Source: Lytechinus variegatus (taxonomy: Eukaryota > Echinodermata > Echinoidea > Temnopleuroida > Toxopneustidae). Taken from it: a stretch of DNA of 64,000 nucleotides. The DNA lies in contig NC_054743.1 in assembly GCF_018143015.1 (NCBI RefSeq), forward strand, positions 39,698,922 through 39,762,921. The letters are read 5' to 3'. Numbering within the stretch: position 1 is the first letter of the stretch; each line of letters begins with the position of its first letter. Under the pieces are notes generated by a model. The model was not told the origin of the DNA, made no database searches, and saw only the letters and a program-made list of their open reading frames with translations. Made by a program: the position numbers and the translations under genes. This document shows positions 25,849-59,845 of this stretch, in pieces.

Positions 25849-28800
25849 CTAATAATTGGCTTCGTCAAATGCCTTCCTGGCTTTCTTGAGTTCTTCATTC
25901 ATTAGCAGAAGCTGTTTGATTCTGGAATACTTGCGAGGGTCTTTCCTGATGAGAAAGATGATATCCTCTACTTGAACTCTGCCTTGTCGGCCTACCTGGG
26001 TTGCCTTCAGGGTCTGATTGAAAACAAAATGAGGAAGAGAATGAGATGCTGCATGGAACTATTATTTACTCTACTGCATGCAGTACTTTCCAAAAGTCAA
26101 TAACAATTTAAAGCAAGTTTAAGGGTGGATAATGGGAAACATGTATTGTACCTCTGAAAAGACAAGCATGGTCTAGTTACTAAAATAAATCTCTATATTC
26201 TTCTAGACTACACCTCTAAAGAAAAAAGTTGACAAGCTTTCATGGGTAATGCATATCTTCATAAATATAATTGGAAAATCCATTCAAATACCTGTACATG
26301 TAGTTATTACTCTCTTGGCTTATAAGAGTAGAGACATTGCATCTAACTCTATTATTTTTGTTTTTTTATTGTTTGAATAATACAATTTTTTGTTGTTGTA
26401 TATATTGGACAATAAGGACCAACTTGACTGAACCATATAGTATTGACCAATGCTAATTCCACATGTTCAGGGAGGAATGAATCATTGTCGTTTCCCTTGA
26501 CAATGAGAAAATCAGAATATTTCATATCATAAAATACAAAAGAAATAGTGAGTGGATGACGTCATCAGTCTCCTCATGCGCATCCCGACCAGGATGTGAA
26601 TATAACTGTTTTGTGAAATCATCCAAACTTTTTAAATGAAATGTCACAACTTTCTTATTCTGCATCCGATTTTGATGAAATTTTTAGCATTTTGCTTGTT
26701 TTGATTTTTCCCCATTTATTCAAATCAACATTTTTCTGCGGTCGACTTGACCTTTAAATATGATGACTATCAATACCATCATTGTCACGTTTAGTATAAA
26801 CTTGTAAAAATCCACCTTGAACATTTGTGGAATATGCACTTTAGTTTATCCACACTTCTTTTTTTCTATTTATTTTCAAAAGCAACATGCATAGCACACT
26901 TACTATATCTGTAATAAAGCCAAGAACTAAATCTTCTAGTAGATCCACAGTTTCAGCATATGGGTTCTGATCATCACCAAAGCCATACATCATACATCTC
27001 ACTGTACAGTAAGAAGAAAAAAGAACGAGATGTAAACATTGCTTTTCTGTAATATGATAAAAAAATATACATGTATATGGATAAATGATTTATACTTTGA
27101 TACCTCCTACAGAATGACAAATGCTATCTCAAACTTGAAAAATTCTGTTCTCTCCATACATATCTATATATCAGGGGCGGATCCAGCCTTCGCCAATGGG
27201 GGGGGGGGGAAATTTTTTTTTTCAGCCATATTTTCCCTGATCGGCTACTCAAAGATGATTTTTGCCGAGATTTTTGGTTTGTTTGAAGGGGTAGTCCTAA
27301 TAGTCACTTCTTAGCTTTATTCTCATTAAATAAACATAATATATAATACCATAATCCTTACTTATATAATGCGGGCACAAAGCGCAAGCTATTTTTTTTT
27401 GAAATCTTATGTATTTTTTCCTAAAATTTTGAACATTCTGGGCAATGTTCATTATCCTGAAAAAGATGTGTATGCAAATGAATAATTCTATGAACGTGAA
27501 GCGCGAGCAGAAATGCATTGATGGGAAAGGTACTATTAAAGACTGTTTGCAGTTAACCATGAAGACGTTATACATATTTCAAAAATCAAATAATGCGAGC
27601 GCGAAGCGTGAGCTGAAATTTTTACATAAGGAATGGAAATTCTAAGCACTTTTTGTGACTTAAACATAATAGGTATAACTAAACAATTGATGCGAGCGCA
27701 AAGCACGAGCGGAAAAAGTAGAGATTTAGACCTACTGAACGAGACACTCTATTCAAGTTTTGTAAATCATGAAAAGGATGAGTAACTGGGGATCTTCCTT
27801 ACATTAATAATGCGAGCGCAGAGCGCGAACAGAAATTTTTTATATACGTTTTGAACTGATCAAAAAGGTACCTATTAAGGACTGCTTGCACTTAGCCATG
27901 GAGACGTTACATATTTCAATAATCAGATAATGCGAGCAGAGTGCGAGCTGAAAAATTCTGACATTTTCACACAAAGAATGTAAAATTCTAATCAATTTTT
28001 TTAATCGTAAACAGGATAGGTATTTATCTAAAGAATTGATGCGAGCGCGATCGGAAAAAAATTCGAGATTTAGACTTAAAAATGGGACACTCTATACATG
28101 TTTCGTAAATCATGAACAGAATGAGTAAAAAGGGATCTTCCTACATTAATAATGTAAGCACAAAGTGCGAGCAGAAAATTTTTGATATTGTGATCTGAAA
28201 CTGGATAATGATTTAGTAGAGAACAAGTTGACTATCTGAATAAACATTATTCATTATTACTTTGAGTTTTAACATAGGAACGGCACATCCTTAGGACATG
28301 CATATGAGAATGATGACTTTCTTCCTATTCCTCTTGCTAAGTGTGAGATGAAACAAAAGGGGAAATTTGATTATTAGATTGATATCTTATTCATCAATGC
28401 CTAATAATAAAATTTTATAGTGACATGAAAGATTCTTTTTATTTTCCAAGTCTTAACCTCATCTTATTTCATTCACTTGTCTTCCTCCTCTTCTGTATAT
28501 TCTTTTAGTATGGAATGATAAAACTCAAGGCATATCCACGTTAGCCATGTGCCCTAGAGGATGTACATGTAAATTAGAAAAAAAGGAGCATACATTTTAA
28601 GTTTATCTGCTAAATGGACCTTCAGTTATCTTGCAAACTAAAACAGGATGGAAAGCCTGAAATCATAATGCCTCTTACACTCTTTGTTGAAGAACCTTTT
28701 TTTCTTATCGGCACTCTCAGCTGGAATTTCTTGATCAACTTCCTGCCCATCGAAGTCCTGGGTATCCTCAGTTTCCTGTTTCAGGAGAGAATGATCAAAT

Positions 28801-30232
28801 TGCAAACAAAACCGTTTTCTATAGATGACAGTGTGATGCATGCAGAGGGAAAAATCCCATACTGGTACATGTACCCGTAGATCTAGCTCTGTAATTTCAG
28901 TTCATCGGTGAACAGTAGAGCCGCTGGTCCAAAAATTGGGATTGTCCCAGAAACGAAGGACATCCTCATAAACCAAGACAAACCATATCTTGAAAAATGG
29001 AGATATTCCTTGTTTATGGGGACAGCTTTTTTTTCACTTACCCCTCCGAGAAATAGACAGCAATTACAGGGATATCGTGTGCTAATACAGATTCAGTGAC
29101 CTCAATTCCCCAAATTCACCATCTATTTTTCATGACTTGTCATCTTCCAATAATCTTGTTATGAGACCTGATATGTTTAAGATTGGAGTCGGCACTTGAC
29201 TGGTGAATGAACTATCCTAGATTTCATGTTTGGAGAAATCTTTGAAAACCGAGACAGTCCCTGTAACTTGGACGTCCCCAATTTTCTTACCAGTGCCTCT
29301 ACTGGTGAACTACACTGTTAAGCAATAATGAAGGTCAATTTTTTAGCCTTTCCCGCATGACTTCCTGGGAAAAATGGCGGCCGACTTTAGCTCATGAAAG
29401 TGCCATTTTCATGAGAGGACGTTTCCAACATCCATGAACATGGGGAAAACCATTGAAAATCCACTTTGAGTCACCGTACAGATCGAGCTAGAACTTTGGT
29501 CTTTGTATTCGATGAGTGGAGCCAACGGACTTCAGCGGAACAACCATGAAGCTTTTGGTCTAATCATAACCTATCACAAGGGAGCTCTGGCCCGCAAAAC
29601 GGGTCGGAGCCCAGGACTTGCCCTAGTAATATTAGGCAGCGGGTACACCAGAAGTGGGAACGCAGCACACGCGACCCACAAATTAGAAATCCACTGCCAA
29701 ACGCGGTTCATGGTGTACGTGTGTTCTTCATCCATTAATAATAATGGATGAAGAACACAAAAAAGTCACAAACGATTTTTATATTATTATAAGTAATCAT
29801 GATAATCGAGGCGCAAGTGCACAATTTATTTTTCCCCAATTTATTTGGAAAGCTATTGCAACCCCATCTTGGAGTATACCCTTGTCTGCCTAGTATTACA
29901 CGGAAAACCACTGGATCACTTCAGATTCCCTGACCTAATCATATTTCATAACCTTGTTGGCTTGTTCATTGAAAGAGTGGTATTTCGTAACACTAACAGT
30001 GCACAACAAACAAATTTTGCAGCATATGGGACATACAATAAAATATAACTTAACTTCATTACTGTTACCGATCTCTCAAAGTAACAATACGAAATAATTT
30101 TATCCTGAAATAAAGAAATACATCTTAGTTAAATAAAAACGAAAAGATTATAGCAAATAGTGCCCTATTATTGTGACAAAACGAAAAGCAAACCTCTGAA
30201 TTGGAAGCAGCAGCACTTGAAGATTCAGCCAT
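25849..30232 (-). CDS. TAF13: TFIID subunit 13 (histone-fold), complete, four exons
   Basis: TAF13 pairs with TAF11 by a histone fold inside TFIID, at RNA polymerase II promoters. Exons 30232-30194 (start MAESSSAAASNSE), 28775-28679, 27001-26904 and 26013-25849 join in phase to 399 nt, giving 132 residues including an acidic N-terminus. Diagnostic blocks are KKKRFFNKELRCMMYGFGDD, the helix TVDLLEDLVLGFITDI, and GRQGRVQVEDIIFLIRKDPR, then the C-terminus KARKAFDEANY and stop TAG 25851-25849. Human TAF13 is 124 residues; the extra length is in the N-terminus. The exon 1 donor is GTTTGC, weaker than the others, so the first exon is slightly less sure than the rest. Intron 2 holds a GCGAAGC-type element and intron 1 an inverted repeat. 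RPP21 follows directly downstream. Confidence 0.95.
26400..26757. mobile_element. One arm of the TTAAAGG-AAGTCCA MITE in a TAF13 intron
   Basis: It matches the right half of the 5976-6867 element, from GGACAATAAGGACCAACTTG to GTCGACTTGACCTTTAAA, with AAATAGTGAGTGGATGACGTC in between. Confidence 0.65.
27172..28505. mobile_element. GCGAAGC-motif element, copy 1 (TAF13 intron 2)
   Basis: It starts CAGGGGCGGATCCAGCC and a poly-G run, followed by the family opening TTTTCAGCCATATTTTCCCTGA. Modules of about 100-120 bp each contain a variant of TGCGAGCGCGAAGCGCGAGC (near 27370, 27497, 27593, 27690, 27809, 27928, 28039, 28150). It fades at a pyrimidine-rich CTTCCTCCTCTTC stretch that other copies also have near their right end; the poly-G right terminus is absent here. 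Confidence 0.75.
28873..29490. mobile_element. Imperfect inverted repeat in TAF13 intron 1
   Basis: GATCTAGCTCTGTA at the left mirrors TACAGATCGAGCTAGAAC at the right; inner arms such as AGTAGAGCCGCTGGTCC mirror CCAGTGCCTCTACTGG. Probably a degraded non-autonomous transposon. Confidence 0.5.
29720..29759. repeat. Perfect 18-bp-arm hairpin
   Basis: TGTGTTCTTCATCCATTA is followed after ATAA by its exact reverse complement TAATGGATGAAGAACACA. No terminator or binding function can be assigned. Confidence 0.85.
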
Positions 30233-30277
30233 TATTGTAAAAATGACGACAGAGGGCGTGCGTGACTGCAACATGAT

Positions 30278-30743
30278 CCAGTGCTTCCCCTTTTTAAAAC
30301 GAAACTTCCTGGAATTTACTCTGAAAGTTCTTGGAATTTTACAAAATATCTTGGAATTTTCTGAACGGTTCTCTAATCTTAAATAAGTTATAATTCTCTT
30401 CTATACACACACAAAGCATGAAATATAGGACCCAGTGCCGTAATTAATCCGAGCCTGCTATCCTGTTTAAAGATATTTTAATAAATAAATAATAAATAAA
30501 TTGAGCCAAAAATTTTGAGGGGGCAAAACGTGACGTATAACGGAAAAAGTTTATAAAGAGTCGCGAGCGAGCGAGATAAATTTTTGACATTTTAATTAAA
30601 GTGATCCAATTTTGTTACAGATTTTGACATAATATTCAGATAATATGTTATTCTAGAAATTCCTGGAAAACTTCCTGGAATGATTCTGGAAAATAGCAAA
30701 ACTTCCTGTAATTTCCTGGATTCCAGGAAGAGTGGAAGCGCTG
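30278..30743. mobile_element. Degenerate inverted-repeat element rich in TTCCTGGAA
   Basis: CAGTGCTTCC at the left mirrors GGAAGCGCTGG at the right, with many ACTTCCTGGAATT-type units near both ends. A GCG-type remnant (GTCGCGAGCGAGCGAGA) lies inside at about 30560. It lies just upstream of TAF13 exon 1. Confidence 0.5.
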
Positions 30744-31139
30744 GCAACATCGTCAGTGCATTAGTGTTTCCTCAGATCCAAAACATTTTTTCCGCAACTG
30801 AATCCCAAATTTCCTGAAAATTCATGAATTTCCAGAAATTTTCAAATTTGATTTTTTAAAATCAAAATCGGCCAATAATACAGCGAGCCTATATTCAGTC
30901 CAAGTGACCAAAATCAACGAATTATTGTTCAACAAAATTGACGAAATGCGAGCTCGGAGCCAGAGCAGAAAATTTTGAGCTTCGTATCGAGGTACACAAT
31001 TCTTTAATAACATAAATATCAAAAAAATTTTCATTGTGATTTTCGGATTAGCCAGAATTACCTAGAATTTTTTATCGTACCCGAAAATTACCAGAAAATG
31101 ATCCGGATTCACCGGAATTCGGGTAATTTCCTTCAAAGT

Positions 31140-32620
31140 GCTTAGTGGAAAGACTGGTCTGGATGCAAGCTATAAGCGCGGGGGGGGGGGATAATCAGGT
31201 GGGAAAAAACCCTGACTGAACAGAGATTGCAGCTTTCCTTGGTCTGCCTTGGCCATGGCCTTAAGGATTTGAAGCCTTGAAATCAATTCAAGGCATTTAT
31301 AAGAGTTAAGCATTTACTTAGTTTTAAAAACATTTTTTGTTTGTGAAAGACGATAATTATAGCATCCCCATCACCAGACATTTGAACTAATAGAGAAGTA
31401 TAACAATAATGTTTTTATGATTTTGAACATGAAAAATATATAACATTAAATAATGAGAATGGAGATTTAGCATCAAGATGGAGCGGTAGTCATGCAGTTT
31501 AAGTTGAAAAAGAGTATTGAATTTATTTTCATTTTTAAGCCTTAGGCCCTATACGATACGTCACTCACTATTCAAAAACACAAATTCGAAGCTTAAACTC
31601 AATTCGATAGAAAAAAAAATCTGGAAAAATATCTTTAAAAGCACTTTTTCATTCATTCATTCATTCATTCATTCATTCATTCATTCATTCATTCATTCAT
31701 TCATTCATTCATTCATTCATTCATTCAATTTTTCCAACAATATCAATAAGCAATAATTACAACAAATAAAATATAACATCAGAAAATACAAATGACATAA
31801 ATATTCAAATAAACCAAATATAAAGAATATACACTTGATACAGAAGACAATATATCAGAAATGTTGTAAAAATGGAGTTATAATTGAGTTATTTTGTGAT
31901 AATCGTGCCTACAAATGCCACAAACATACAGGCAAATCTGCCATCAAGACATTCATGAATGGCATATCATAAGATAAGCCTATCTAAATATTCCCAAAGT
32001 AAGAATAAACACAAACACATCATTTCGCATCGATGGCTCGAGTAAGTACATTATGAAGGCGTGTCTGCTATAGGTATATTTTCAAACATTTTCCCCAGTT
32101 TTGGAATACCGAGTTCAACAACTTCTAAAGTTCAAGGTCAATGTTTGCTCTTTTTCACTCATAGTACAGCAACGAGGAGACATCTAATAAATATATATTA
32201 CCCTGATTACAAGATAAAAGTTCATTCAAATGTTTGCGTAGTCCTTTGAACTGTACATTGATTTATTTAATGGCCCAATAATTTGGAACAACCACATTTT
32301 TCTCATGAACTTCGTAATTTGTTTACTAGATGGGGGTAGATTTAATTCATATATGTTTCCCTTTTTGTTTTCATTCTTGCTTTTGTCTTTTTGTAAGTGT
32401 TGTTTCCTACCATAAACATGTAATTACATCTTTGGCCGATGTGTGATCAGTGACGGGGGCATTCCATACAGTCACCCAAGTTGGCGAAGTAGATCATGAA
32501 AACATAAACATAAACAACTTTACTAAAATCTAGATATTGATACAATTAATTTGTATAAAATGAAGATCCTTCAATGAACGATGCAAACAGAAACATTAAC
32601 TTTTGAAGGCATGCAATTAA
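31140..32620. other. Gene-free stretch with simple repeats
   Basis: AT-rich. It contains a G run at 31180-31190 and the (ATTC)n array. No conserved coding sequence or repeat ends are recognised. Confidence 0.4.
31651..31728. repeat. (ATTC)n microsatellite
   Basis: About 19 uninterrupted tetranucleotide units, creating a Phe-Ile-His-Ser open frame that is not a gene. Confidence 0.98.
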
Positions 32621-32904
32621 CACTGTTAGAAAAAATAAAAGAAGTTCCTGCAGCAGAGTCTCGAGAACACCTGTAATCTTACCGAATTGCGTAATAATCA
32701 TTCTGTAAATTCATAAAACAAGAATTTTTCTGCAATTTAACAGAACAGGTCTGTTTAAAAAGGGAAAAAGGGTGTTTTATTCAAGGAAATTTGTAAGATT
32801 CCATACATCAAATACCAATTTCCTGTAAGATTACGCAATTCGGTAAGATTACAGGTGTTCTCGAGACTCTGCTGCAGGAACTTCTTTTATTTTTTCTAAC
32901 AGTG
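32621..32904. mobile_element. MITE with 75-bp identical terminal inverted repeats
   Basis: The left arm 32621-32695 (starting CACTGTTAGAAAAAATAAAA) and the right arm 32830-32904 are exact reverse complements by eye over about 75 bp. The 134-bp centre is non-coding. Identity of the arms suggests recent arrival or arm conversion. The superfamily cannot be named; the target-site duplication is unclear. Confidence 0.9.
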
Positions 32905-41100: not shown

Positions 41101-41159
41101 ATATAGTCTCAAGACAGTCCCAGTAACTGTAGAGGTGTGGAGAGCGTTTGATATGATTT

Positions 41160-42530
41160 CCTAGTGGCGGGGCTTTGCTTTACGATGGGGACCGAATGGC
41201 AAGGGAGGGGGGGGGGGTAAAAAAAATTCACCAACATTTTATAACCCTATTCAAATATTGTGCGCGAAGCGCGATCATTTTTTTGTTGAAATTTTATGTA
41301 TTTTGTCCCGAATATTGGCCCGATCGAAAAGGGGCCTCTTAAGGACTCTCTGCAGTAAGCCACAAAGACGAGATACATATTTCATGATAATTTTTGACAT
41401 TCCGACCTAAAAAAAACGACATTTTAAGTCCTTTTTGTAATTTGGAACGGGATATATTACTAAACATTTGATGCGAACGCGAAGCACGAGCGGAAAAAAA
41501 ATGAGATTCAGACCTAAAAACGGAACACTCTATTCATGTTTTGTAAATCATGAAAATTAATGGATGGGTGATTGGAATTCCTACATTAATAATGTAGTAG
41601 AAAGTAGAAAATATTTTAGATTCTGAACTGAAACTGTATAACTTGAACACGTTTTGATTAATAATAAACCAGCTCAATAAACATGCGTGCGTGTGTTTTA
41701 GATTTAGACCTATAATCTGCACGGGCAATCTGAATATATTTTTTTTATCATGAATAATGCCATTGCGAAGTGCACGGTGAAAATATTTAATATTCCTATC
41801 TAAAAAGGATCAAATTAAGGACTACTTCAAACAATATATGCATACAAACTGTAAAAAGGGATGGATAGCACTAAAAATGATGCTAACGCGAAGCGCGAGC
41901 TTCTCTTTTTATTATTATTTTTTTTACCTAGGACCGGACATTCAAATAACATTTTGTCATCGAATGAAAGTGATGACTGTATCTTTCTATTCCTCTTTCT
42001 AAACACGAGATGAAAGTTTTCGATATTCCATTCTGCAAAAGGGGTCAATGTAGTTATAAGGAATTCATGAAAGTGTTATTGTCTTATTCATAAATCTGAT
42101 AAGCCTTATGGGACGAATTTTATTGATATTAAGGCCTGAAAACTGGACATTAACACTTTTGTAATAGTGCATAGAATGCAAAGGTTGACATAATTAATTT
42201 TTAACAATAAAATGTACGCGCAAATCGCAAGGCGAATTTTTTTTATAAACTGTTTCCCTTTTCCGCCATTTCGAAATAGGGCTACAAGTATGTCTGTGTC
42301 TTACGGTAATCTGCCGGAGTTTGAAACCGATCAGCCGGCGGATTGTGTGCCTAGTACCGTATCTGCCGTTATACGAAGCCGTAAATTAACATGGGTATAA
42401 TACCTCCTTATTTTTTTTTAGCGCTTCTCTGAAGTTAAAAAGGACACCTTTCGGGCGTTCGCCAAAAATAAGGGGGGGGGGAGGGGGAGGTTCGGCCTCC
42501 CTTGGACCCGCGCCTGGGGGTTGGTAAACT
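41160..42530. mobile_element. GCGAAGC-motif element, copy 2
   Basis: It opens with a G run and AATTCACCAACATTTTATAA. Motifs lie near 41262 (GCGCGAAGCGCGATC), 41472 and 41883 (ACGCGAAGCGCGAGC). The segment GACCTAAAAACGGAACACTC then TATTCATGTTTTGTAAATCA matches copies 1 and 5. It ends in GGGGGG...GGCCTCCCTTGGACCCGCGCC near 42525. Confidence 0.75.
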
Positions 42531-43057
42531 TGGTAAAGATATTATTGCTCCATACGATTCAATCTCTAGATGCATAACCTCTGTGGTCTTTATCTGTTTG
42601 TTTTTATAGAGTATAATATCTCAGGAATTGAGTGAGATGGTAAAACAAATTGTGAGATTGTTTAAAAGTTTACTGCAAATATATATAAAAATAATAAAGT
42701 TGTCACTTTTTCGATTAAGCATCTTAGAACATGGTGAAAATGGTTGATATCAATAAAATTACCATGATGCTCCGGTGTACATCCCTGGACAAGGTTCTTT
42801 TTCTTACAATAACATAAGTTATATTAATGTCATTGTCTTTATAAATGAAGAAAAAAAATCTTCCAGAAGTAATCTGTTTTGTTCGACTTCAGCTAATACT
42901 ACGAATTTTGCAAATGTCAATTTAGCACCAACGGTTTTTTAATATCAAACAGGGGCGTCGATCCATTTTTCAGATTGGGGGGCAAAATCATGAAACGCGC
43001 ACATAGGCCTATACATACACACACACACCTTCACCCCCCACACACACATATTATATA

Positions 43058-45156
43058 TACACAACAAAAAAAGTAAGTCCCCCTTGAACAAACATCAATA
43101 ATTTCCGAACCAATTCGAATTATTGATATATTTTTCCATGAGCGTGTAGGTAATTTTATAGGCTACCCTCTGAGTAAATGTTATGGACGTATTTTACGTC
43201 ATGCTTCAGTGAGCACCGTCAGAAGGCAAAAATGTCACTTTTCAAAAGTCACAAGCCAAATATCATGACTTTGATTCCATTTTACTGGAACTAATTCCAC
43301 ATTCTCTTCATGAAAAATAGTCAGAAGGCTTATAAAATGTACTTTCTAAAGTACGATACAACTTTTTTGCTAAATTTCTTGGTTGAATAAACACAAGTCC
43401 AAATTTGCAATAATTGGATTTTTTACACATTTATATCACTAGGAATGAAAGAATATGATGACAGTTATTTTTGGGAAGAGTATCTTCAACAATATTCATC
43501 GTTTCACGGTTAAATGAACATTTATTAAAAACAAAAAATACGATTTTCAAATATCATAGACAATTATTGTTTCATTTTGGTAACTGAAAATGATCTTTTC
43601 TCAACTTTTTCGTTATGTTCACGACCATTTAACTTGCTTGAATGATTCAAAGGCTTTTAATTAAACATTCACGCTTGAATGAACATGTGGAATGTGATGC
43701 TCTCTTTTTTACGTTATTGGAAAAAATGCCATTCGTAACTATGGATATCCGTTAAAAACCTCCTTGCATAGTTTATTTGATTTGATGTTTATGAAAATCC
43801 CGATGTTTAATGCATCAGTGAGCACATAATATTCGAAAATTATGCAAATGAGAAGAAAGTTCAAAGCCTTGGCCCCACTCTGTGCCGTGTTGAATGGTTA
43901 TTTTGGTGTGCGCGCCTTTTGGATAGTGTTACTCTGAAGCCATGTGCGTAGTTTCATGAAAAAACTGTTGGCAGAAGTAGCACAAACCGTCCATGAAACA
44001 AACCCTCATTTCATATTTGTGAAAATTTTGACTTCTTCTCTCATAGACTTGTGTACATTATGGGTGCATATGTTTAAGCATACTTAACCCCTTATTCAAT
44101 ATAGTGGAACTTTTTTTCAAGGCTGTCTTTAGCAATGTCATTTGGCAGTAATGTTTATTAACCTATGGGCAGAATTCTGTGCAAAAATGAAATCAATATG
44201 TTTATTCATGGATGAGTGAGCACGCATCAAAGTGGGAAAATTGGTATTTTCAATGTCACAGACTCATTTTAAAGGGTCATAAAGTGCATATTGAGGGCAA
44301 ATTCGGTTTCAAATGTTTTTGTTTTATCATCCATCATATTTTCTATCACCACACACTTTTTGAACTTAAAACATTTTCATGGTTGAGCGAGCACATTCGA
44401 AAACTTAGGAATGAATACTCTTTATACGGCATAAATGCATTCTTTTCGTAACAAATTTTCATGATCAGTTTAATTTATGGGCAAATTAGTGGTGGACCCA
44501 GAATCTTAAAATGGGGGAGGGGCCTATAATCGGGGGAGCCACCAACATTTTCAAATTCTAACATGATCTATAGCAAGTTGTAAATGATACTACCATAACC
44601 CCCTATGATGATACGTCACAATAAAGGAGCCGCGGAACGGTTTTCAAAGTGGGGGGGGGGGGAGGTTGGGGGTAGCTGAGCCAAAAGTGGGAGGGTGGGG
44701 GCTGACCATGCAAAAAATCACAATCGTTTGGTCATTTTTGTACATGCTTTTTGAAAAAGTGGGGGGGGGGGCTGAACCCCTCCCCCCGCTTCCGCGGCCC
44801 CTGCAATACAATGTGCTCACTTAACCATGAACATACGATATCAAAATTGTGTGTGGAGTGGCTAAATGATGGATAGTAAACCAGTATAACACCATAAAAT
44901 TCACCTAAAAAACAACTTTTGTCCAACATTGTATTTGCACAATCTGAAACACGACTCTTGTGACTTTCAAAAATGGTCATTTTTAATTCAATCTTTGATT
45001 ATTCATGCATGACTCAACCGATCAGTTTCATATTTCCCCAGGAGTTGCCTAATGGGTGTAGAAATCCACCTACGAAACATCATATCTCAAAATCATTCCG
45101 TTCAAAAGTTACAGCAATTTGATTTAGGGGGGACTTACTTTTTTTGTTGTGTATAT
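43058..45156. mobile_element. TIR transposon with ACAACAAAAAAAGTAAGTCC ends, copy 1
   Basis: ACACAACAAAAAAAGTAAGT at the left and ACTTACTTTTTTTGTTGTGT at the right are inverted repeats next to (TA)n, compatible with a TA target. The interior (ACGCTCATG, GTGAGCACC and GTGAGCACG repeats) has no long open frame, so it is non-autonomous. An inverted second copy is at 57510-60470. Confidence 0.78.
44625..44805. mobile_element. G-run MITE inside the TIR transposon
   Basis: AGGAGCCGCGGAACGGTTTT at the left and CTTCCGCGGCCCCTGC at the right are inverted, with poly-G tracts and CATGCAAAAAATCACAATCG between. It is related to about 21200-21330. Confidence 0.65.
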
Positions 45157-45164
45157 ATATACAG

Positions 45165-45245
<81 letters not shown>
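45153..45245. repeat. (TA)n microsatellite
   Basis: Nearly pure TA repeat at the right edge of the 43058-45156 transposon. Confidence 0.97.
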
Positions 45246-45251
<6 letters not shown>

Positions 45252-46317
45252 ATATAAATATGTCATGAGAAAGAGACACATATCTCACAAACAAATTAAT
45301 GCGAGCGCGAAGCGCGAGCTGAAATTTTTTAGTATACTGTCCTGAAAACAGGAAAAAGGCACCTCTTTATTGGACTTTTTGTAGTAACTCTTGAGGAGGA
45401 TGCATATCTCACTACACAGATAATGCGAGTGCCGAGAGCGAGCATAAATTTCTTTATAATCTGACCTGAAAACTTGATATTCTAAGCATTTTTGTACCAA
45501 TAAATAAGACAGGTATCTAGAAGAACAATAGATGCGAGGGCGAAGCGCGAGCTGAAGTTTTCGATATCGATATGAAAAAAAGGAGTTTAAGATCCTACAA
45601 AAGATTATTGCAAATCGAAGTGGGAGTTCGTTTGAGGTTTAAACCTGCAAACGGGACATTTTATTCACCTATTTAATCATAAAGAGTATGGGTTTTTGCT
45701 CAAGAAATCATGCGAGCGCGAAGCGCGAGCTGAAAATTTTTACATTCCAGTTGGAAAAGCTGACATTTTGAGCACGACTTTACGACTTTAACCAAAGAAC
45801 GAGTTGTGTATCTCAATCTCGCTTGCTAATTTCTTTGTAACATTACAATCTCATTTTATTTTTGCACTTATACGGAATTATTGGGGGGGGGGGGGCAAAA
45901 CGATATGTTTGCCCCCCAATATTTTCATTGGTTGGGCGATCGCCCCCCCTACCCCCCAGGATCGACGCCTCTGATATTAAAATACTGAAACATTAAACTA
46001 TTAAAATATTGTCGTGGTTACCTGCATTCTGCATGTTGTTAGTTTGGATCTTTATAAAAAAAAGTTAATTGTGAAAGGATTAAATTCTCCTCTAGAAATC
46101 ACTCGAATAAAGTTGACGGTATGATAATGATACCCATAAAAATCGCACAGTATGCCTTTGCACGATCAACTAGGAAATTCATTATGTTTATACTGCCTGT
46201 GTTGGCTCGAGTGGTATTAACGATCTTCTTGGCGCGGGCCTGGTATCATGACAATCATTCTCGACATTACCTGCTTCTTTCGGTAAATTGCCGATTCGTC
46301 TCGTCCACTCGTTTCAT

Positions 46318-46847: not shown

Positions 46848-48055
46848 CGAAGCTAAGATTTTTTTCCTGGGGGGGTCCTTGCTTTTTCAGGGGGGGGGGG
46901 GCATTTTTTCCGATGTGTGTATGTGTCAAAAGGGTGGATCTGACTTTCCCCAATAGGGACCGGGGCCCGAAATTATCTTCACCTATATTTTCCCCGATTA
47001 GTCACTTCTTACATTTATTCTATTAAAACAACATAAACATGAAATAATCTCATAAGCCATATAAAAAGTGCGAGCGCGAAGGGAGAGCGATTTTTTTTAT
47101 TTACTTTCATGCATTTTGTCCTAAAAATTAGATATTCTGGGCAGTGTTATGTATGATCCTGAACAAGATTCGTATGTAACTATATGATTACTGCAAATGC
47201 CAAGCGCGAGCAGAAATTTTTATGAACTGTTCTAGCATTATCGAAAAGGGACTCGTTAAGGACTGCTTAGTTACCCACGAAAACGGTACATATTTCAATA
47301 ATGGAAGCGCGAAGCGCGATAATTTTTTTTTGATAATCCGACCTAAAAAATGGTCATTCTATTAAGCACTTTTTGTATTCATAAATGGGATAGGTATGTA
47401 ACTAAAAAATTATGCAAAAGGAAGAAAATTGAGATTTCATACCTAAAAGCGGGACACTATTCATATTTTGTAAATCATAAATAGGATATGATTAATTGGG
47501 TATCATTAATATTGCTATCGTGAAGCGTGAGCAGACAATTATTGATATTCTGATGTGAAACTGGATAATTCAAGTACATTTTAAACATAGAACATGCAGG
47601 CCATCGCGCATGTTTTAGATATAGACCTAGAATCTGGGCATCCTGAATACATTTGTTTAATGGAATTTTATGGAATACACGTAGACAATGGGAACTTGGC
47701 AAATCAAACAATATGACCAAGCAGCGTGAGATTAAAATGCTGATAATAAGACCATTAAACGGACATTTTACAGAATAAATTTGTAAATGAAAAAAAATAA
47801 TGAAAGCTCGATGTCCGAGCCAAAATATTTTTTTTTGTATATTGACTTCAAAACTTGCTCCATATCAGCCTTTTGAGCAAGATATGAATCTCATCGAACA
47901 GGCCATTCTGGCGCGAAGCGCAAGCAAATTTTTTATAAAGTAACATGAAAGATTTTTTTTGCAAGTCTTCCCCTCACATTATTTTATTCACTCGTCTTCC
48001 TCCTCTTCTTTTTTTCTTCTGACTTTCTCCTTCTTTTTCTTTCTTCTTTACACGG
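46848..48055. mobile_element. GCGAAGC-motif element, copy 4
   Basis: It starts AGTGGCGAAGCTAAG and G runs; motifs near 47069, 47198, 47306 (AGCGCGAAGCGCGAT), 47517 and 47911 (GGCGCGAAGCGCAAGC). It ends in CTTCCCCTCACATTATTTTA and CTCGTCTTCCTCCTCTTC as copy 5 does. Confidence 0.72.
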
Positions 48056-49225: not shown

Positions 49226-49296
49226 ATCTCTGTGGTCTAGTGGTTAAGGCACCGGCGTTCAAAGCTGGGGGCCCGGGTTCGATTCCCGGCAGAGAC
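49226..49296 (+). tRNA. tRNA-like cloverleaf with anticodon TCA (tRNA-Glu-like body)
   Basis: 71 nt folds as acceptor ATCTCTG/CAGAGAC (six pairs, first position A-C), D stem GTC/GGC, anticodon stem CCGGC/GCTGG with loop GTTCAAA, variable GGGC, and T stem CCGGG/CCCGG with loop TTCGATT. The anticodon is TCA at 49259-49261, which would read UGA. A and B boxes are intact (TGGTCTAGTGG, GGTTCGATTCC). The body resembles tRNA-Glu. It could be a true suppressor-type gene, a tRNA pseudogene or a SINE head; the last is most likely in this context. Confidence 0.55.
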
Positions 49297-49508
49297 ATTT
49301 TTTCGGCATCACCAATTTTCTAAAGGGTAGATAGCTCTGGGGAACCTTGATTTAAGCTACGCCTACCATTGTTCTCTTCATCCATTTCTTTACAATATAT
49401 ATATGAAATATATATAAACCCACACACTCTTAGTTTATTTTTTGTCTATTTAAAGGGTCTTTTTTATATTCGCGAGGATACGTTGCCATATAGTTGATTG
49501 ACACACCT

Positions 49509-50457: not shown

Positions 50458-53400
50458 TTAGTCTTCATCAAATGCTGGTAACCCGATGTTGCAGTACTCC
50501 CAGCGAGTATTAGGGTCGGTTGTGTAGCACCAGGCAAAGTCTTCGCGGTCAGGGTTGCGGCAGTAGTTGTGGTTACCCAGGCCAGCATCAGGGTAGTTAT
50601 CAGGAGTGCGAGAGTGACCATGGGGACTCTGGGAAGTCCATGCCTGGCATTCGAGTCCGTTCCTTGTGGTAGAGACGTATCCCCGGTAATCGGTGCCACT
50701 GGGTTCCTCATAGTACTCAGGATCTGGGTAGAAAGAGAAAAAGGGAGTATGTTTATTCATTGACAGATGGGTCATTCTCGCGAAAGTGTCGCAATTCATG
50801 AAAATCACGACTCGACCATCTTTTGGCCCACGTCCCCAAGCAAGACCAACAAAGATAAAAATGTAAAAGGGCTGCACACGGCGTCCACTTTCTGATCAGT
50901 GACCAGTAAATCGTTCAGCGGAATGTAAATGCAGATTAAAAATTATTTTGTTAGACACGTGTTAACAGACTTGCTCACATGTTCAAGCCGAAGCCTCACT
51001 GGCCACCAGGCACATTGGCCCATATTCTGAAGTCAGGTTTAACTTAGACCATGGTCTAACTCTGTGCTAAAATTATGGGAAGCCAAAAGTGTCAATTTTT
51101 TAATGAGGTTCTATGTTTCTTATGTGCTCTTTCCTGCTTCATTGATGGTGAAGACAATCATCTATTTATATTTCCGAGACAATTATGAATGATTGAAGAG
51201 CCAAATGAGCTGAAATATGATATCTTAATTGTTAGTGATTTATGTAACGATTGGCTATCCATACTTAAACCACAACTTTAAACCCGAGTTTATGTTAAAC
51301 CCGACTTCGGAATACGGGCGTCTGTGTTCTAATGGACCTCCGTCCACGTTATTGCTCAAACAAAATGTAGAAAGACCTTGCAAGGTATGATAATGATAGT
51401 TTGATCTGTTTAGCTTTATAAATAAAACTATTACTATTTTTCATATCTTGCACAGCGCGTCATACGTTGGTTTCTAAGCGCTTTTTGCAATTACCATTAC
51501 CCCGGTCATAGGATCTATAATTTCTCCACACATAAAGTGCACTACTTCAATGAAAACCCATTTGCTCACTCCGGTCAAAGACGAGATGAAAATAAAACAA
51601 AGGGATCATGATTATCATGATTAAGGGTGCTTTATAAAATAATTAAAGACCATCACAGGCCAAAAATATACTTCAAAAAATGTGGAAATAGCACAATAAT
51701 GCAAATTAAAAGAAAAATATTGCAGAAAAAATATTTTTTAAGATTATATTTCAATATAACATTTAGAATTTGAACAAAACTCATATTTTAAATATCTATT
51801 AGACTGTTAAAAAATAATATGATATAGAGTCTCCTATAAACGAATAAAATTGTGAAGTATCTGGCTAATATTGCTGTCTTAATTTGCCTCTATGTTTCAT
51901 TAACAGCATTGATTTGGGTAAATTCCATCAGTAACTAATCGCACACTTAACTTGAAGTATAGAGTATGCCTATATTTTCTGTACACATTAACTCCCGCTT
52001 CCATAAATGCTAAGATATTATTCAAATGATGTTTCGAGATTGGTTTATGATCAAAGTTGTAACAATATCATATTAAATGTCGACGATATCTTACAATTTA
52101 TAAATGGACGTATTATAACCTTACTCTTCTGATGCAGGGGATATAACATTTTTGCAGTATGCTAAACGTAGAGATTTGTTATGACCAAAATCTTGTAAGA
52201 TAAGACTGAGCGCGGAGGATCGGAGCGACCGTGCGAGAAATTTAGCTTTGTTTTAGAATGCAAAATTGGGCAAATTTCAGCACTTTAAGCAATTAAGACT
52301 AGCAGTATTAATAATTTGGTTTGAAAAAAAAAATGTTTCTGTCTTGAAAACTTGGGGAGGGGAGGTGATTGTACATGCCACCCCCTGGCCGAAAAGTGTG
52401 TGTTTGTGTGTGTGTGGGTGTGTGTGTAGGTGCTGTGGCCGAGTGGTCTAAGGCGCCTGGCTATACATGGAAAGTCCGGAGTTCGATCCCCGGCTGCGGC
52501 ACCTATGCCTGTGAGCAAGGCGTTTAATCTACAATGCTCTTTTATCCTGCTTTCAAATAAATGGAAATGCTATATGCATTATTGGTAACTAGGTGTGCAC
52601 TTGTTTTTGTTTAAAAAAAAAAAAAAAAAAAGTGTTGTGTGTGTGTGTGGGGGGGGGGGCTATGCTATATTGTTTTGAAAAAAATATTGTTTCTGTCTTG
52701 AAATCTTGGGGAGGGGGAGGTGATTGTACATGCCAGCCCCCTCGACGAAAAGCGTGTGTGTGTGTGTGTCTGTGCGTGTGGGGGGGGGGAGGGTGGCTAT
52801 ATCACCCCATCCCCTTCGATTTTCGCACGTGTATTGAGCCCATTTTTGCGGAAAAGGTGTTCTATGAATAGACATTAACTTTCACTTACCTGTGCATTGT
52901 CGACTGAAATCACCAATGGCGCAATATTCCCATCGGCGATCGGGATCAGTAGTGTAACACCATGCAGTGAAGGCCCTGTCAGGGTTTCTGCAGTGGTTGT
53001 GGTTTCCAAGGCCTGCATTCGGGTAGTTATCGGGTGTCCTGCTGTGGCCATGAGGGGTCTGAGATGTCCAAGATTGGCATGTTTTACCGCTCAAAGTTAC
53101 AGATAAATCCCCTCTGTAGTTTGTCCCATTTGGATCATCCGTGCATGCCGCTGTAAAATAACGATAATAATGAAATGAACTACTTGTCTTAAACATGTTA
53201 AACATGACAGTGTAAGCGTTTCAGTCAAACAACTGTGGTGCGTCCCACCAAGAAGGAAACCTGTTTTCAGAGATACATTTCACAATCATTAAACATGTTT
53301 TTTTGCAAATTTGAGTATCAAATTGATACTCAGTTTTGCATATCCTTCACACATGGCAGATTACAAACAAGAAATACGAGGCATAGGAAACGATTTGCGC

Positions 53401-56400
53401 ATAATCTCGCGTGTGAATCTGAATCCAATCTCATTTCAGCAATCAGTGAGAGAAACTTCACGAAAAAATACAAAAGTTTAAAAGACAAGTCCACCCCCAA
53501 AAATTAATTTGAATAAAACAGGAAACAATCAACAAGCATAACACTGAAAATTTCATCAAAATCGGATGTAAAATAAAAAGTTACGGCATCTTTAACTTTC
53601 GCTTAAATTCACAAAACATGTAGGCCTATGTGCACATCCTGGCCGGAAGGCAAATTAGGAGAATGATGGCGCCATCCACTCACTATTTTCTTTTGTATTT
53701 TATTACATGAAATATTCTTATTTTCTCCTCATTATCAAGTGAAACAAAGATTAATTCCTCCCTAAACATGTGCAATTACTATTTTATGATTTAGCCAAGT
53801 TGGCCCTTATTGTCTGTAAAAATAAAATATTGTATGATTAAAAAAAAAAATCATAAAATTGAAAGTGATGGACATCGTCGACTGTCTCATTTGCATGTCA
53901 CTGAGATGTGCATATAACTGTTTTGTGAAAGTTTAAAATGTCAAAACTTTCTTATTTTACATACGAGTGTGATGACATTGTCAGCATCATGCGAGTTTGA
54001 TTTTCTCTATTGATTAAAATCCACATTTTTCTGGGGTGGACTTGGCCAATGGTCGAATAAGCGCGGTCTTCGTATCACGAATAGTCTAGCTCTAGACGAT
54101 TTTAATTCAATGAATTATATTCTCCGTCGTATCGTACTATCCCGTGCGTAAGCTCAAGCCGAGTGAGCGCGCAAATCCGAGAACCTTTCCGCCCGAGATT
54201 TTATTTTTTATTTTCTTTTTTTTTTCGGGTGGACAGGTTCTCGGATCGAATCAAGATGGAAAGTGCGCAATACAAATCTGATGTAATGATTGATTGATTC
54301 ATTTATTTCCACACTTCATAAAAAGAACAATACAGAGTAAAGATGGTATTACAAAACACAGTACAATATATTCCGATGCATAAAGAATATATTGTTCTGT
54401 ACTACACAAAACAATAAACCAAAATCTGAACAATGCTTAAATCAGATAAAAAGAAAAACACTATATGTAAATGTGGGGGATCATTCAAAAAGTTAAAAAG
54501 TGATAACATAATCCCGATTTTTGCAATAAAAGTTTGAGTTTTGCAGAGAAAGACTTAATTGAGGTAACTTAGTCTAGGAAATTAAAGGTTTTGTAGAAAG
54601 AAACGTTTTAAGTTTATATTTAAATACATTAAGGGAAAGAGAATTTTTGACAACTTCAGGGAGACTGTTTCAGAATATAGGACCATTATGAATTGACTTT
54701 CGGGATGAGGATAAGTTCCCACATGGTAAACGGTAATCAGATTTTCTTCTAATATCATAATTGTGAATATGAGATTTTTTAAAAATAAAGAATCAAAATT
54801 TATTGGAAGTAATTTCTTATAGTATAAATACATAAAGATACCAAGATTGTAACTATATAATTCATACACAGGCAATATTTTAAACTTAAGAAAGAGTGGA
54901 GCAGTGTGAGCTCTGAAACCAGAATGAGATATCATTCTGATAATTCTTTTTTGTAAAACTAAAGTTCTATCTAATAAAGTTTGAAGACCCCCAAACAACA
55001 ATTCCATAATTGAGATATGATAAAATGAAAGTGTTATAAAGTATTAAGAGAATATTATGTGGGACAAATTCACGTAATCTATTTAAAACACCTATATTTC
55101 TAGAAATGAGGGAGTTTATCTTGTTAACATTACTTTTCCATTTTAAATTATCATCAATGTAAATTCCAAGAAGTTTTACACATTCTTCACCGTTTCTACT
55201 TCAGTATCATTAATATATAATTTAGCAGATTTTTTATCTACATCGTTTCTACTGATGATCATAAAATTTGTTTTCTGAATATTCAAAGCTAAATTATTAT
55301 TAGAGAACCATTCCTGTACTTTATTAAGTTCAATATTCATATTTTGTTGTAAATAATCTATGTCAATGTGATTAAAAATATATTTGTGTCGTCAGCAAAC
55401 AAAAAACAAACAAATTTTGATAAATTAGAGCAGAGATGAAGATCATTAACATATAAAAGGAAAAGAAGAGGACCGAGGATTGAACCCTGCGGTACGCCTA
55501 TTGATACTTTCGTGAACGCATAATGACATGAATTATAAAGAACACATTGCTTTGTATTACTTAAATAATTGTGTATCAATTTAAGGGCAATACCTCGTAT
55601 TCCATAAAAAGATAATTTACTAAGCAATATGTCATGGTTAATACAATCAAACGCCTTTTTAGATCAATGAACACTCCAAACGATATTTCGTTATTCTCAT
55701 AAGCATTTATAATATCATTTAAATAATCTATCAGAACATGAGACGTACAATGTTTTTTCTCTAAATCCAAATTGTTTTTGATAAAGTATAGCATTTTGGA
55801 GAAGTACGATAATAAGGAAATTGGTCTATAACTTGAGAAAACATTCTTTGGACCAGATTTATATACAGGAATAACTTGTGATATTTTACAACTATCAGGA
55901 AATATACCTTCTTGAATACATAAATTGAAAATAAAGCATAATGGTTTACATAAAATATGAATTGTCCTTTTTACAACATCATTTTCAACACCATCAATTC
56001 CTGGGGCTTTTTCATTCTGTAAATAATTGGCAATGTTAATAATTTCCTTTTCTGTAATTGGTTTGAGATATAAAGAACAAGGCAGGGTGTTTTTCAGGTA
56101 AAAACTATAATCAATATTACCTCTTGCAATGTTGTTTCTGATAGTCCAATGTTGGTAAAATATTCGTTAAATGCAAGTGCATTGTCATTTTCATTTCTGA
56201 TTTCTATTTCATTATTTCTAAAATTAAGATAGGCCTCAAAAAGATTATTATTATCATTATTATTATAAGGGAGGGTGATGGATTTCTGTGTGCGTGTGTA
56301 TGTGAGAGAATGACAGAGAGCGAGGGGGGGGTGTAGAGTAAGAAGAGAGAGAAAACTGCTAATACTTACGAATGCTAGAAACAACCCCGACAACAGTAGA

Positions 56401-56430
56401 GAGTGCGAGAAGCAAGAACAGTCGGTCCAT
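50458..56430 (-). CDS. Secreted two-kringle protein, complete, three exons
   Basis: Exons 56430-56370 (signal peptide [20 protein letters not shown]), 53150-52890 (kringle 1) and 50723-50458 (kringle 2 and stop) join in phase 1 at both introns, as expected for shuffled kringle modules, giving 195 residues. Kringles are disulfide-bonded extracellular protein-binding modules. Kringle 1 has all six cysteines ([13 protein letters not shown] ... TCQSW ... HCRNPD ... AWCYTTDP ... YC ... SRQC). Kringle 2 keeps C2-C5 ([25 protein letters not shown]) but lacks C1 and C6, replaced by [10 protein letters not shown] and GLPAFDED. There is no protease or other domain, so a binding or scavenger role can only be guessed. 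Intron 1 (52-56 kb region side) contains a LINE. A paralogous last exon is at 62115-62380. Confidence 0.9.
51016..51319. mobile_element. MITE with TGGCCCATATTCTGAAGTC ends
   Basis: AGTCAGGTTTAACTTAGACC at the left and its inverted form (GTTAAACCCGACTTCGGAAT) at the right. It is inside the kringle gene intron and also inside the duplicated block, so it predates the duplication. Confidence 0.75.
51801..52428. other. Intron sequence, nothing recognised
   Basis: AT-rich intron of the kringle gene ending in a (GT)n run at about 52397-52427. Confidence 0.4.
52429..52503 (+). mobile_element. tRNA-Leu-like SINE head in a kringle intron
   Basis: The acceptor GGTGCTG pairs with CGGCACC (one G-T), A box TGGCCGAGTGGTCTAAGG, B box GAGTTCGATCCCC. 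The T stem is imperfect. A SINE-like tail (CCTGTGAGCAAGGCG) follows. GT-rich duplicates on both sides (52335-52420 and 52690-52780) share TTGGGGAGGGG and GGTGATTGTACATGCCA. Confidence 0.65.
53477..54048. mobile_element. TTAAAGG-AAGTCCA MITE, uninterrupted copy
   Basis: TTTAAAAGACAAGTCCACCC at the left and CTGGGGTGGACTTGGCC at the right; the inner TTCATCAAAATCGGATG is continuous here, unlike in the 6 kb copy. Confidence 0.75.
54285..56280 (-). mobile_element. Non-LTR retrotransposon (reverse transcriptase part), 5' truncated
   Basis: Minus-strand coding traces of a LINE reverse transcriptase: SSYRPISLL (about 55830), [17 protein letters not shown] (about 55610), [20 protein letters not shown] (about 55498-55440) and the catalytic FADD (about 55400-55388). 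Then come thumb and C-terminal remnants down to about 54580. The 3' end is a TGATTGATTGATTC repeat near 54289. Frames are interrupted several times, so it is inactive. The motif style fits the CR1/L2/Jockey group; the clade is not certain. It sits in kringle intron 1, same strand as the gene. Confidence 0.9.
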
Positions 56431-57509
56431 GTTTACTTTCGAAGTCAAAGAAGGACTGAAATTAAAACAAAATGCACATTTGTCAAAATCAAAGATTAAT
56501 AACCGTGGTATATTATTCTGTAGTGGCATATGGAGAAGTATTCCAAGGATTACAAGTAGTCCTTCTCAGCATGTCTAGGCCCACTTTGGATTTGAAAAAT
56601 TCTTCAGAGGTAAAAATCTCTCTTTTTGAGGCCCATCTGAAGTCAAAATAAAAAAAAGTACAGAAACATGGCAAGACAGAAGGAAGAAATTATATGACAT
56701 TTTATAAAATCCCAATAAATATTAATCTTAGAGACGCATTGAGACTAATATCATTTTTTAAGGGGCACGACAATATCAAAATCATTTGCTTGTTGTAGAG
56801 ATTGGTTGAATAGTGAAATCACTTACTCTGCTCGAAAAGATTTGTTGAAGATATGTTGCTCGCCCAGTCTCGCTGTTCTAATGCCTGTCGAATCTTCGAT
56901 GTGATTCTGGAAAGACAAGATGCCTACATTTATAATGTTTGAATTAGAAGGCGATCCCACACAGTATACCAGGCTAAATTTCATTGGTCCAAGCAGAGAC
57001 AAAAGTCACCCATATCAGAAACCAATCAAATGTCACCGAGTGTCTCATCGCTTATCTGATTGGTCCAAATTGTCGCCAAGCCTGGCCCATATTTTGAAGG
57101 ACATGAACATCATCCTCTTGAAACGCAAAGCGAACGTCATGATTGGTTGGGACAAAGAGTGATACCACACTTAATTATAGCCTTCTAATTAAGAAAAAAA
57201 AATCCCAGTCCTGGACGCCCCTGGATAAACATGTGCATATCAAGGTACTGATTCATTAAAACCTTGGTCGGTGATTTTCACTGAAAAGCCTGTTCTGAGT
57301 CAATATCATTCAGATGCAAAGATTTCAGTTGCTTAAAAAAAACAGACTATTTGTTTCAAGAGATGCATAACAGGCCAGCGAGATGTATATCTGGTTGTTC
57401 TGATGGGAAGCTGACCTAGACATATTGATACAATCCTGGCGAGAGATTAGGGGGAGCATTTGATATCGAAATTGCCCCCATTATTGACTTTATTACCCCT
57501 CAAAATAAG
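56431..57509. other. Upstream flank of the kringle gene
   Basis: 5' flank and possibly 5' UTR exon. No clear TATA box or repeat ends. An open frame at 56920-57162 shows no recognisable domain. Confidence 0.4.
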
Positions 57510-58189
57510 TTGTGACATTTAAAATGTTCACTCATCCATGAATAAACATATCGATTTTATTTTTGCACAGAATTCTGCCCATAGGTTGATAAACATAACT
57601 GCCAAATGACATTGATAAAGACTGTCTTGAAAAAAAAGTTCCACCATATTGAATAAGGGGTCACTTATTCTTAAACATATGCACCCATAGGTACACAATG
57701 TCTATGAGAGAAGAAGTCAAAATTTTAACAAAATGAAATGAGGGTTTGTTTCATGGACGGTTTTTGTTACTACTGAGAAGAATTTTTAAAGAAACTTCGC
57801 ACATTGCTTCAGAGTAACACTATCCAAAAGGCGCGCAAAAAATAATCATTCGATACCGCACAGAGTGGGCCAAGGCCTTAAACTTTCTTCTCATTTGCAT
57901 AATTTTCGAATATTTTGTGCTCACTGAAGCATTAGACATCGGGATGTTTATAAAAATGAAATAAAATGAACTATGCAAGGAGGTTTGTGACAGATATCCA
58001 TAGTTAGCAATTGCATTTATTCCAATAACGTAAAAAAGCTGATCACATTTCACATGTTCATTCAAGCGTGAATGTTTAATTAAACGCATTTGAATAATTG
58101 AAGCATGTTAATTGGTCATAGACATAACGAAAGAGGATGAGAAAAGATCATGAACATAACAAAAAAGGGTGAAAAAAAATCATGAACAT

Positions 58190-59845
58190 AACGCAGGGGG
58201 GGGGGTGGGCGGAATTCTTTTTCAGTCATATTTTCCCCGACCGGCCGCTCGAAGATGATTTTTGGTTTCTTTAAAGGGGTAGTCCTAATAGTCACTATTA
58301 GCTTTATTCTTATGAATTCTTGTGTATTTTTTCCTAAAATTTGAACATTCTGGGCAATGTCTGTTATCCTGAAGAAGGTGTGTATGCAGTTCAGTAATTA
58401 CTTACGAACGCAAAGCGCGAGTAAAAATGAACTGATGGAAGAGGTACCTGTTAAACACTGCATGCAGTTAGCCATGAAGACGTTACATATTTTGAAAATC
58501 AAATGATGCAAGCGCGAAGCGCGAGCGAAAAAAAAATCGAGATTTAGATTGAAATTTCTAGATAAAGAATGGAAAATTTTAATCAATCGTGAACAGGATA
58601 GCTATATAACTAAGCAATTGATGCGAGCGCGAAGTGCGAGCGAAAAAACGAGATTTAGCTCTAAAAACGGTAAAAAAACTGTATTCATGTTTTGTAAAGT
58701 ATGAAAAGAATGAATAATAGTGCATCGTCCTACAAGCGGCGAGCCCAAAGGCCAAACAGAAAATTTTTGGTATTGTGATCCGAAACTGGATAATGTTATA
58801 AATAGAGATAAAGTTGAGTATCTGAATATCTAGGCATTCTATATAATCTTTTATTATAAAAATCAAAGCGAGTGCGAAGCGCGAGCTTTAACTATTTGAT
58901 ATTCTAATCTGAAAAAAAGAGTCAATTTCAGCTCTATACTTTTTTATTGTGAGGTGGATATGGATCGTTCCTAATGAAGAGCTGACATTTTTTTATTATT
59001 ATCACATGTCATTTTATCAAAATAAAGACTATCTTCCTATTCCTCTTGCTAAGCGCGAGATCAAACAAAAGGGAAAATTTGATTATTAAATTAATATCTT
59101 ATTCATCAATGCCTAATGAGGTCGCGAAATCTGATGATATTTTGGCCTGATAACTGGACATTTCTAGCACTTTTGTTATTATAAATAGGATGCATTAGTT
59201 AATATATTTTTAACCATTAATGCGAGCCAATTTTTTTTATTCATTTTCATGAAAAGGGGATTTTAAGTATAGTTTGTTGTATAATCAATGACACATACAT
59301 AACTCGCCAATCAAAATGCGAGCGTGCAGCGCTAGCTGATATGTTTGACAATTAGACCTGAAAAGGGATATTTTGAAAACTTTATGGAATATACGAAAAT
59401 GATAGGTACCTGATAAATTTGCGAGCGCGAGCAGAAAATGTTAATATTTAGACCATAAAACCGACGTTTTTACAGAGAACGTTTAAAAAATCAATTTTTA
59501 TATCACACAAAATAATGAAAGCTGGATTTCGATCCGCGGTGAAATATGTTTTGTATATTGACTTCCAAACTTGATAGTTAAAATCCCTATTGAACAAGAA
59601 ATGAAAGTCACGTAAAAGGCAATGCGAGCGCGAAGCGCGAGCGAAATTTTAAAGTGACATGAAAGTTTTTTTTTTATTTTCCAAGTCTTCCCCTCATCTT
59701 ATTTTATTCACTCGTCTTCCTCGTCTTCCTTTTTCTCCTCTATTTTCCCTCCTTTTTTTCCTCTCCTTTTTTCCTTTTTTTCTGCTGCGCCAATAGGGGG
59801 GGGGGGGGGGTTGGGGGGCCCGGGCCCCCCTGGATCCGCCTAAGT
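58190..59845. mobile_element. GCGAAGC-motif element, copy 5, nearly full length
   Basis: It opens with a G run then TTTTTCAGTCATATTTTCCC (as copy 1) and closes with CTTCCCCTCATCTTATTTTA, a pyrimidine tract, poly-G and CCCCCCTGGATCCGCC. Motifs near 58408, 58509 (AAGCGCGAAGCGCGAGCG), 58622, 58870, 59318 and 59625 (GCGAGCGCGAAGCGCGAGCG). About 1.65 kb, with no open frame of a transposase. Confidence 0.8.

Follow-up and report, generated by a model that had tools for sequence, protein, structure and literature searches.

A GC-rich motif arrayed inside elements with hAT-type ends in Lytechinus variegatus: a putative transposase docking site

Known subterminal repeats and the arrayed motif

Subterminal repeats are important to hAT transposases (PMC10368747, PMC4763223). 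The Hermes transposase binds such repeats, which are 4-bp AAGT/C words, through its BED fingers, and two repeats form a quasi-palindrome (PMC10368747). Near one end of Tol2 lie three repeats, each about 30 bp long (PMC8151067), and repeated hexamers in Kat1 are thought to help the transposase (PMC4763223). In Galileo, the internal tandem repeats are reported to carry extra transposase-binding sites, and the transposase binds via a THAP domain (PMC4079207). Here we describe a 20-bp GC-rich motif, TGCGAGCGCGAAGCGCGAGC, that recurs in five dispersed element copies within 64,000 nt of Lytechinus variegatus DNA (assembly GCF_018143015.1, contig NC_054743.1, positions 39,698,922 to 39,762,921), hereafter the window.

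Families of elements carrying the motif were designated A, B and C, and genomic loci and contigs are numbered with the prefixes L and C. Families A and B have 8-bp target-site duplications and hAT-type ends, the motif units inside the elements are tandem and on the same strand, and the transposase-encoding family B carries the motif close to its right end. On balance it is probable that the window copies are old non-autonomous DNA transposons of the hAT superfamily, and that the motif is a hAT subterminal repeat, most likely a transposase-binding site, multiplied inside them. As we propose it, TGCGAGCGCGAAGCGCGAGC would be a subterminal repeat in a group of hAT elements of this genome, with a putative role, most likely, as a site at which the transposases dock by their N-terminal DNA-binding region. 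A unit of motif and AT-rich linker would then have been multiplied in tandem within non-autonomous elements, giving many sites between the ends. We infer that the transposase binds the motif and that the extra sites raise mobilization; family A may have been moved by a hAT transposase.

The elements resemble Hermes and Tol2 in their 8-bp duplications, short inverted ends and repeats internal to the ends, and the transposase-encoding family has a hAT dimerisation domain. They differ from Hermes, with its 4-bp words, and from Tol2, with its ~30-bp repeats near one end, in that a 20-bp word occurs throughout non-autonomous interiors and with several end types. Internal tandem units are shared with Galileo and Tetris of Drosophila; these, however, are foldback elements with the units in long terminal inverted repeats, whereas here the ends are short and the sole transposase found is of hAT type. 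The motif is quasi-palindromic, its 20 bp being made up of three GCGA(A)GC boxes in tandem. This makeup would fit a site of the hAT or Galileo style, and the motif is therefore taken, by analogy, as a presumptive amplified hAT subterminal repeat. The system is known in outline, as hAT elements with subterminal and internal repeats; unusual is a long GC-rich site common to several terminus types and arrayed throughout.

The window copies, the element nested in one of them and the exact motifs are as follows.

27172..28505, + strand: copy 1, family A element; left end CAGGGGCGGATCCAGCCTTCGCCA at 27172; 6 motifs
41160..42530, + strand: copy 2, related element; starts AGTGGCG; 3 motifs; boundaries as in the first-pass annotation
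42950..45973, + strand: copy 3; 15-bp inverted ends CAGGGGCGTCGATCC / GGATCGACGCCTCTG; 4 motifs at 45300-45730
43060..45151, no strand given: nested element inside copy 3; ends CACAACAAAAAAAGTAAGTCCCCC and its complement
45300..45319, + strand: exact motif TGCGAGCGCGAAGCGCGAGC in copy 3
45711..45730, + strand: exact motif TGCGAGCGCGAAGCGCGAGC in copy 3
46848..48055, + strand: copy 4, related element; starts AGTGGCG; 6 motifs
58190..59845, + strand: copy 5, family A element; right end CTGGATCCGCC at 59830; 6 motifs
59623..59642, + strand: exact motif TGCGAGCGCGAAGCGCGAGC in copy 5, ~200 bp inward of the right end

With up to 6 mismatches allowed, the 20-mer was found at 25 sites in the five copies, all 25 on the + strand, and at three sites in the remaining 55 kb of the window; five mononucleotide shuffles gave a mean of 0.8 sites per window. 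At up to 7 mismatches there were 32 sites inside the copies (31 on the + strand) versus 8 outside. The core GCGCGAAGCGC with at most one mismatch occurred 12 times in the 64 kb, always on the + strand and within the copies, compared with 0.06 in shuffles. These counts bear out the first-pass annotation in that five copies repeat a GC-rich motif; its spacing of 100-250 bp was too narrow, since recognisable motifs within one copy lie 97-450 bp apart. The three outside sites (30947, 31164 and 40141) are isolated and degenerate, and a motif-related word, GTCGCGAGCGAGCGAGATAAATTTTTGACATT, was noticed at 30560-30600 inside a repeat that matches L025, L019 and L026.

In the genome (870 Mb, 33 contigs) the exact 19-mer GCGAGCGCGAAGCGCGAGC occurred 14,565 times. 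Its backwards-spelled form occurred 1,887 times, which is not an independent control because the word is nearly identical when read backwards. The word GCGCGAAGCGCGAGC matched no papers, and the literature searched yielded no published description of the GC-rich arrayed site; Repbase and Dfam lay outside this search, so it is a weak test.

By their end sequences, copies 2 to 4 appear to be hAT elements. Copy 3 is in addition flanked by ATATCAAA and ATATTAAA (42942-42949 and 45974-45981), an 8-bp duplication matching at 7 of 8 positions. The exact terminal inverted repeats previously ascribed to copy 3 are present as 15-bp inverted ends, but the copy is composite, with a second element (43060-45151) nested in it. 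The typical ends reported for copies 1 and 5 were seen at the left of copy 1 and the right of copy 5; the right end of copy 1 was looked for and not found, nor was an intact left end of copy 5 or a right end of copy 4. A sibling of the nested element lies at ~57525-60140 in the opposite orientation and hosts copy 5. This mutual nesting is useful for relative dating.

Families of elements that carry the motif

Genome copies of family A begin with CAGGGGCGGATCCAG(CCTTCGCCA) and finish with CTGGATCCGCCTATG, and copies in which both ends were seen are about 1.4-2.9 kb long. The 23-bp left end has 644 exact matches in the genome. Twelve loci were fetched by this end sequence and not by the motif, and the view of the motif that they give is therefore independent of it. 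In 11 of the 12 the first motif (up to 5 mismatches) lay 158-209 bp inside the left end, and in the twelfth at 312 bp. All 93 motif hits in the nine loci with a matching right end were on one strand (one overlapping pair counted); the right end was absent from the fetched stretch in L033 and L035, and L036 had a different right end only. On the first 4.72 Mb of contig C1, inspected by eye, three of five exact left ends had an exact motif, at 184, 184 and 193 bp.

The interior of family A consists of diverged tandem units, each with the motif. In L009, the best-kept array, most motifs lay 90-130 bp from the next one, and the number of higher-order units differed between L009 and L011. Perfect 8-bp target-site duplications together with CAG-type ends were found at two loci, L030 (CCTATCAG) and L024 (CATATCAT), the latter having GGCGGATCCAG-type ends and a different left half; the duplication of L031 matched at 6 of 8 positions. 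Of the open reading frames that overlap motif elements, six (141-268 aa, contained in an element or running across it) were considered as possible coding sequences, and none of the six had a Pfam match at E <=0.01; family A is therefore taken as non-autonomous. On contig C1, a comparison by eye placed no exact left end of family A within 10 kb of a listed hAT transposase match. At L024:3400-4050, within an element that also bears GCGAAGC motifs, short units are arrayed around GGCGCC, a second GC-rich palindromic word.

At least 63 genome matches to the hAT dimerisation domain came out of a Pfam search. One of them, at C5:24863300-24865885, is an open frame of 862 aa with DUF4371 (E 2.4e-17) and, at the C-terminus, Dimer_Tnp_hAT (PF05699, E 1.4e-8), and it defines the hAT transposase of family B. 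Downstream of this frame, on the opposite strand, lay the motif, mismatched at 3 positions but identical over a 17-bp core, CGAGCGCGAAGCGCGAG. The 3' region was then read in nine more loci. Eight siblings, with differing flanks, ended at the same terminus, CTGGTGCCGCCACTG (with one substitution in L053), and all eight had the motif; the ninth locus, L052, belongs to another family and had none. The motif was thus present in 9/9 family B copies read, ending 93-105 bp from the last base of the right terminus. The nine copies are nearly identical and for this reason uninformative on conservation.

Target-site duplications of 8 bp and short inverted ends were found in family B copies other than the one with the intact frame, of which no left end was located. 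A copy of 5,483 bp on C5 (45227357-45232839), with an interrupted frame, has CCGATCGG on both sides (8/8), and on C1 a shorter deletion derivative is flanked left and right by TAGGGATC (8/8). A 17-letter pattern for the left end gave 89 matches and a 22-letter pattern for the right end 51. Of these right ends, 42 had a same-strand left end no more than 8 kb away; 32 of the 42 pairs so formed spanned 979-1304 bp, which indicates that family B has internally deleted derivatives of its own.

The left end of family C, CAGTGGCGTA(C/G)CGTGGGTCACGGC (CAGTGGCGTANCGTGGGTCACGGC), has 1,280 exact matches, which brings families A and C together to 1,924 exact left ends. In L021 and L022 this end was followed by motif arrays, and L022 had further motifs just outside it. 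On the first 4.72 Mb of C1, five of eight family C left ends had an exact motif on the same strand within 900 bp inside (by eye). The sequence of the left ends, the part of family C that was read, suggests that this family is also of hAT type. The common denominator found among the motif carriers was hAT-type ends. A role in mobility, possibly in transposase binding, had been suggested when the window was annotated, and it is supported by the hAT-type ends, by the 8-bp duplications and by the position of the motif close to one end of an element that encodes a transposase, binding itself being the conjectural step. A hAT family with its own transposase is thereby tied, in a concrete way that can be tested, to a large non-autonomous set with interior arrays of a putative binding site. 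It also bears on how transposon interiors become satellite-like arrays, as extra transposase sites may win mobilization.

Divergence of the motif and its spacers

A first divergence test was biased, as it used mostly loci selected for the exact motif and a single reference, and it was replaced. In the replacement, ten independent family A elements were compared with a family consensus, to which L011, L010, L016, L018 and the window also contributed. The ten were the end-selected loci without L035, which belongs to the passenger group described below, and L033, whose alignment was short and weak. Motif and spacer mismatch were 0.102 and 0.246 at CpG positions (ratio 0.41, p = 6e-7), 0.073 and 0.162 at other G/C positions (ratio 0.45, p = 1e-4), and 0.036 and 0.080 at A/T positions (ratio 0.45, p = 0.011). 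The p values are optimistic, as sites within an alignment are non-independent and tandem units may be misaligned. The elements had been chosen by terminal repeat; the windows counted as motif had been selected in the consensus for resembling it, which makes the comparison somewhat favourable. The motif changes more slowly than the spacers, at about 0.4 times their rate, and the earlier statement that motifs are better kept than their surroundings holds in each base class.

As a control we used passengers, that is eleven copies that share their flank and were multiplied within a larger repeat. Ten of the eleven had been fetched for an exact motif somewhere within them. At A/T positions they showed no visible protection (ratio 0.88, only 4 events), and motifs that are inexact in the passenger consensus gave ratios of 0.32 and 0.27, similar to those of all passenger motifs.

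Several observations weigh against the proposed reading as an amplified hAT subterminal repeat. The passenger ratios were 0.43 at CpG (p = 0.0056) and 0.38 at other G/C positions (p = 0.043), close to those of the independent elements, and a lower mutation rate may lie behind much of the conservation of the motif. Several target duplications of family A were imperfect or unclear. A search for a copy that encodes a transposase between the ends of family A found none, the fetched hAT loci having other or unlocated ends. Family B has one motif only, near its right end, and none in the left 1.34 kb that was read. The 3' regions of eight other hAT transposase loci (L043-L045, L052 and L057-L060, of which L052 and L059 look like one family) contained no motif at up to 6 or up to 7 mismatches, the ends of these elements being unlocated.

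The alternative that survives best is a passive satellite, in which the motif has no role, the tandem units were spread inside their carriers by unequal exchange and the mutation rate of a GC-rich word is below that of G and C within AT-rich DNA. The passenger ratios speak for it, and repeat number does vary among copies of the same array (L009 and L011). It does not account as readily for the A/T positions of the motif, which are protected between independent elements and not visibly in passengers, or for the position of the motif close to the terminus of a hAT family with a transposase gene and its occurrence in elements with other ends. We regard it as a possible but rather doubtful explanation. 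Selection on the motif, which the first-pass annotation had read from the conservation, is hinted at by the A/T positions only and is not proven, because the passenger copies are similarly protected at CpG and other G/C positions; the slower change of the motif itself stands.

The hairpin question and other features

The motif could instead be a structural element that extrudes as a DNA mini-hairpin, GCGC-GNA-GCGC, and is recognised in that form during transposition or replication. The word GCGC-GAA-GCGC is quasi-palindromic. Flanking G.A pairs are a possible extension of such a mini-hairpin. GNA loops give very stable mini-hairpins, and the core word of d(GCGAAGC) is identical to that of the motif; its stability is a matter of oligonucleotide chemistry (PMC4686876), whereas here there is no clear sign that base pairing is preserved.

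Covariation was assessed in 344 de-duplicated motif items. Compensatory doubles numbered 21 against 17.3 expected, and 328 of 5000 random sets of G/C position pairs did at least as well as the six stem pairs. Intact stem pairs slightly exceeded column shuffles (3.401 vs 3.361, a value reached by 0/100 shuffles), also among items with at least 3 mismatches (3.043 vs 2.995, sd 0.026), an excess that could arise from uneven divergence among items alone. The GNA loop was not kept. The loop G, on which the GNA turn depends, was the most variable position, changed in 35% of items, and the last loop A was changed in 3%. Among GCGC-N3-GCGC sites, not de-duplicated, 53/200 had AAA, AGA or TCA loops. 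The mean predicted energy of the motif was worse than in 100/100 column shuffles, and the motif folded no better than dinucleotide shuffles (z about 0), with energy tables that may not credit GNA loops.

Elsewhere, GNA loops do occur in perfect palindromes. L042 contains a hAT element (530-4010, ends by eye) with an 830-aa transposase frame. Near its left end lies the palindrome CCTCCCGAT-TTC-ATCGGGAGG, and near its right end are TCGAGCGC-TCC-GCGCTCGA and ATGTGCGC-TAC-GCGCACAT. These three have stems of 8-9 and, on the other strand, the loops GAA, GGA and GTA; a weaker palindrome in the same element (stem 6) has a loop that is not GNA. L021 of family C contains GAGCGCGC-GAA-GCGCGCTC. Of 25 distinct perfect hairpins (stem >=7, loop 3, GC >=35%) among the sequences examined, 6 had GNA loops, three of them from L042.

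The emphasis that the first-pass annotation placed on an extraordinarily stable GAA mini-hairpin is not supported by these data, in which covariation is at chance to marginal levels, the loop G varies most and folding is no better than in shuffles. The palindromes of L042 and L021 and the small excess of stem pairs lend slight weight to a hairpin role, and we consider the structural explanation unlikely. It is very unlikely that a hAT group reads near-end GNA-loop palindromes in extruded or bent form, with one such site amplified to form satellite-like arrays in many hundreds of elements, or more. The least probable explanation is that the motif recruits a host DNA-binding protein for transcription, chromatin or silencing, by which the elements benefit or are controlled; a long, CpG-rich word with many copies and slow change would suit it, but the common denominator found is hAT-type ends. 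The motif marks several hAT families and is more likely a putative transposase docking site than a selected hairpin. The arrays also put naturally to the test whether words that form very stable DNA mini-hairpins are of importance in genomes, and the present evidence mostly says no.

An Rfam scan of the window for RNA gave two tRNAs only. One predicted tRNA, at 49226-49297, has the anticodon TCA and was classed as selenocysteine-type by ARAGORN and as tRNA by Rfam. On the - strand, an open frame of 361 aa at 614-1699 is built of short repeats, and two closely similar open frames at 50458-50895 and 62115-62489 look kringle-like by eye.

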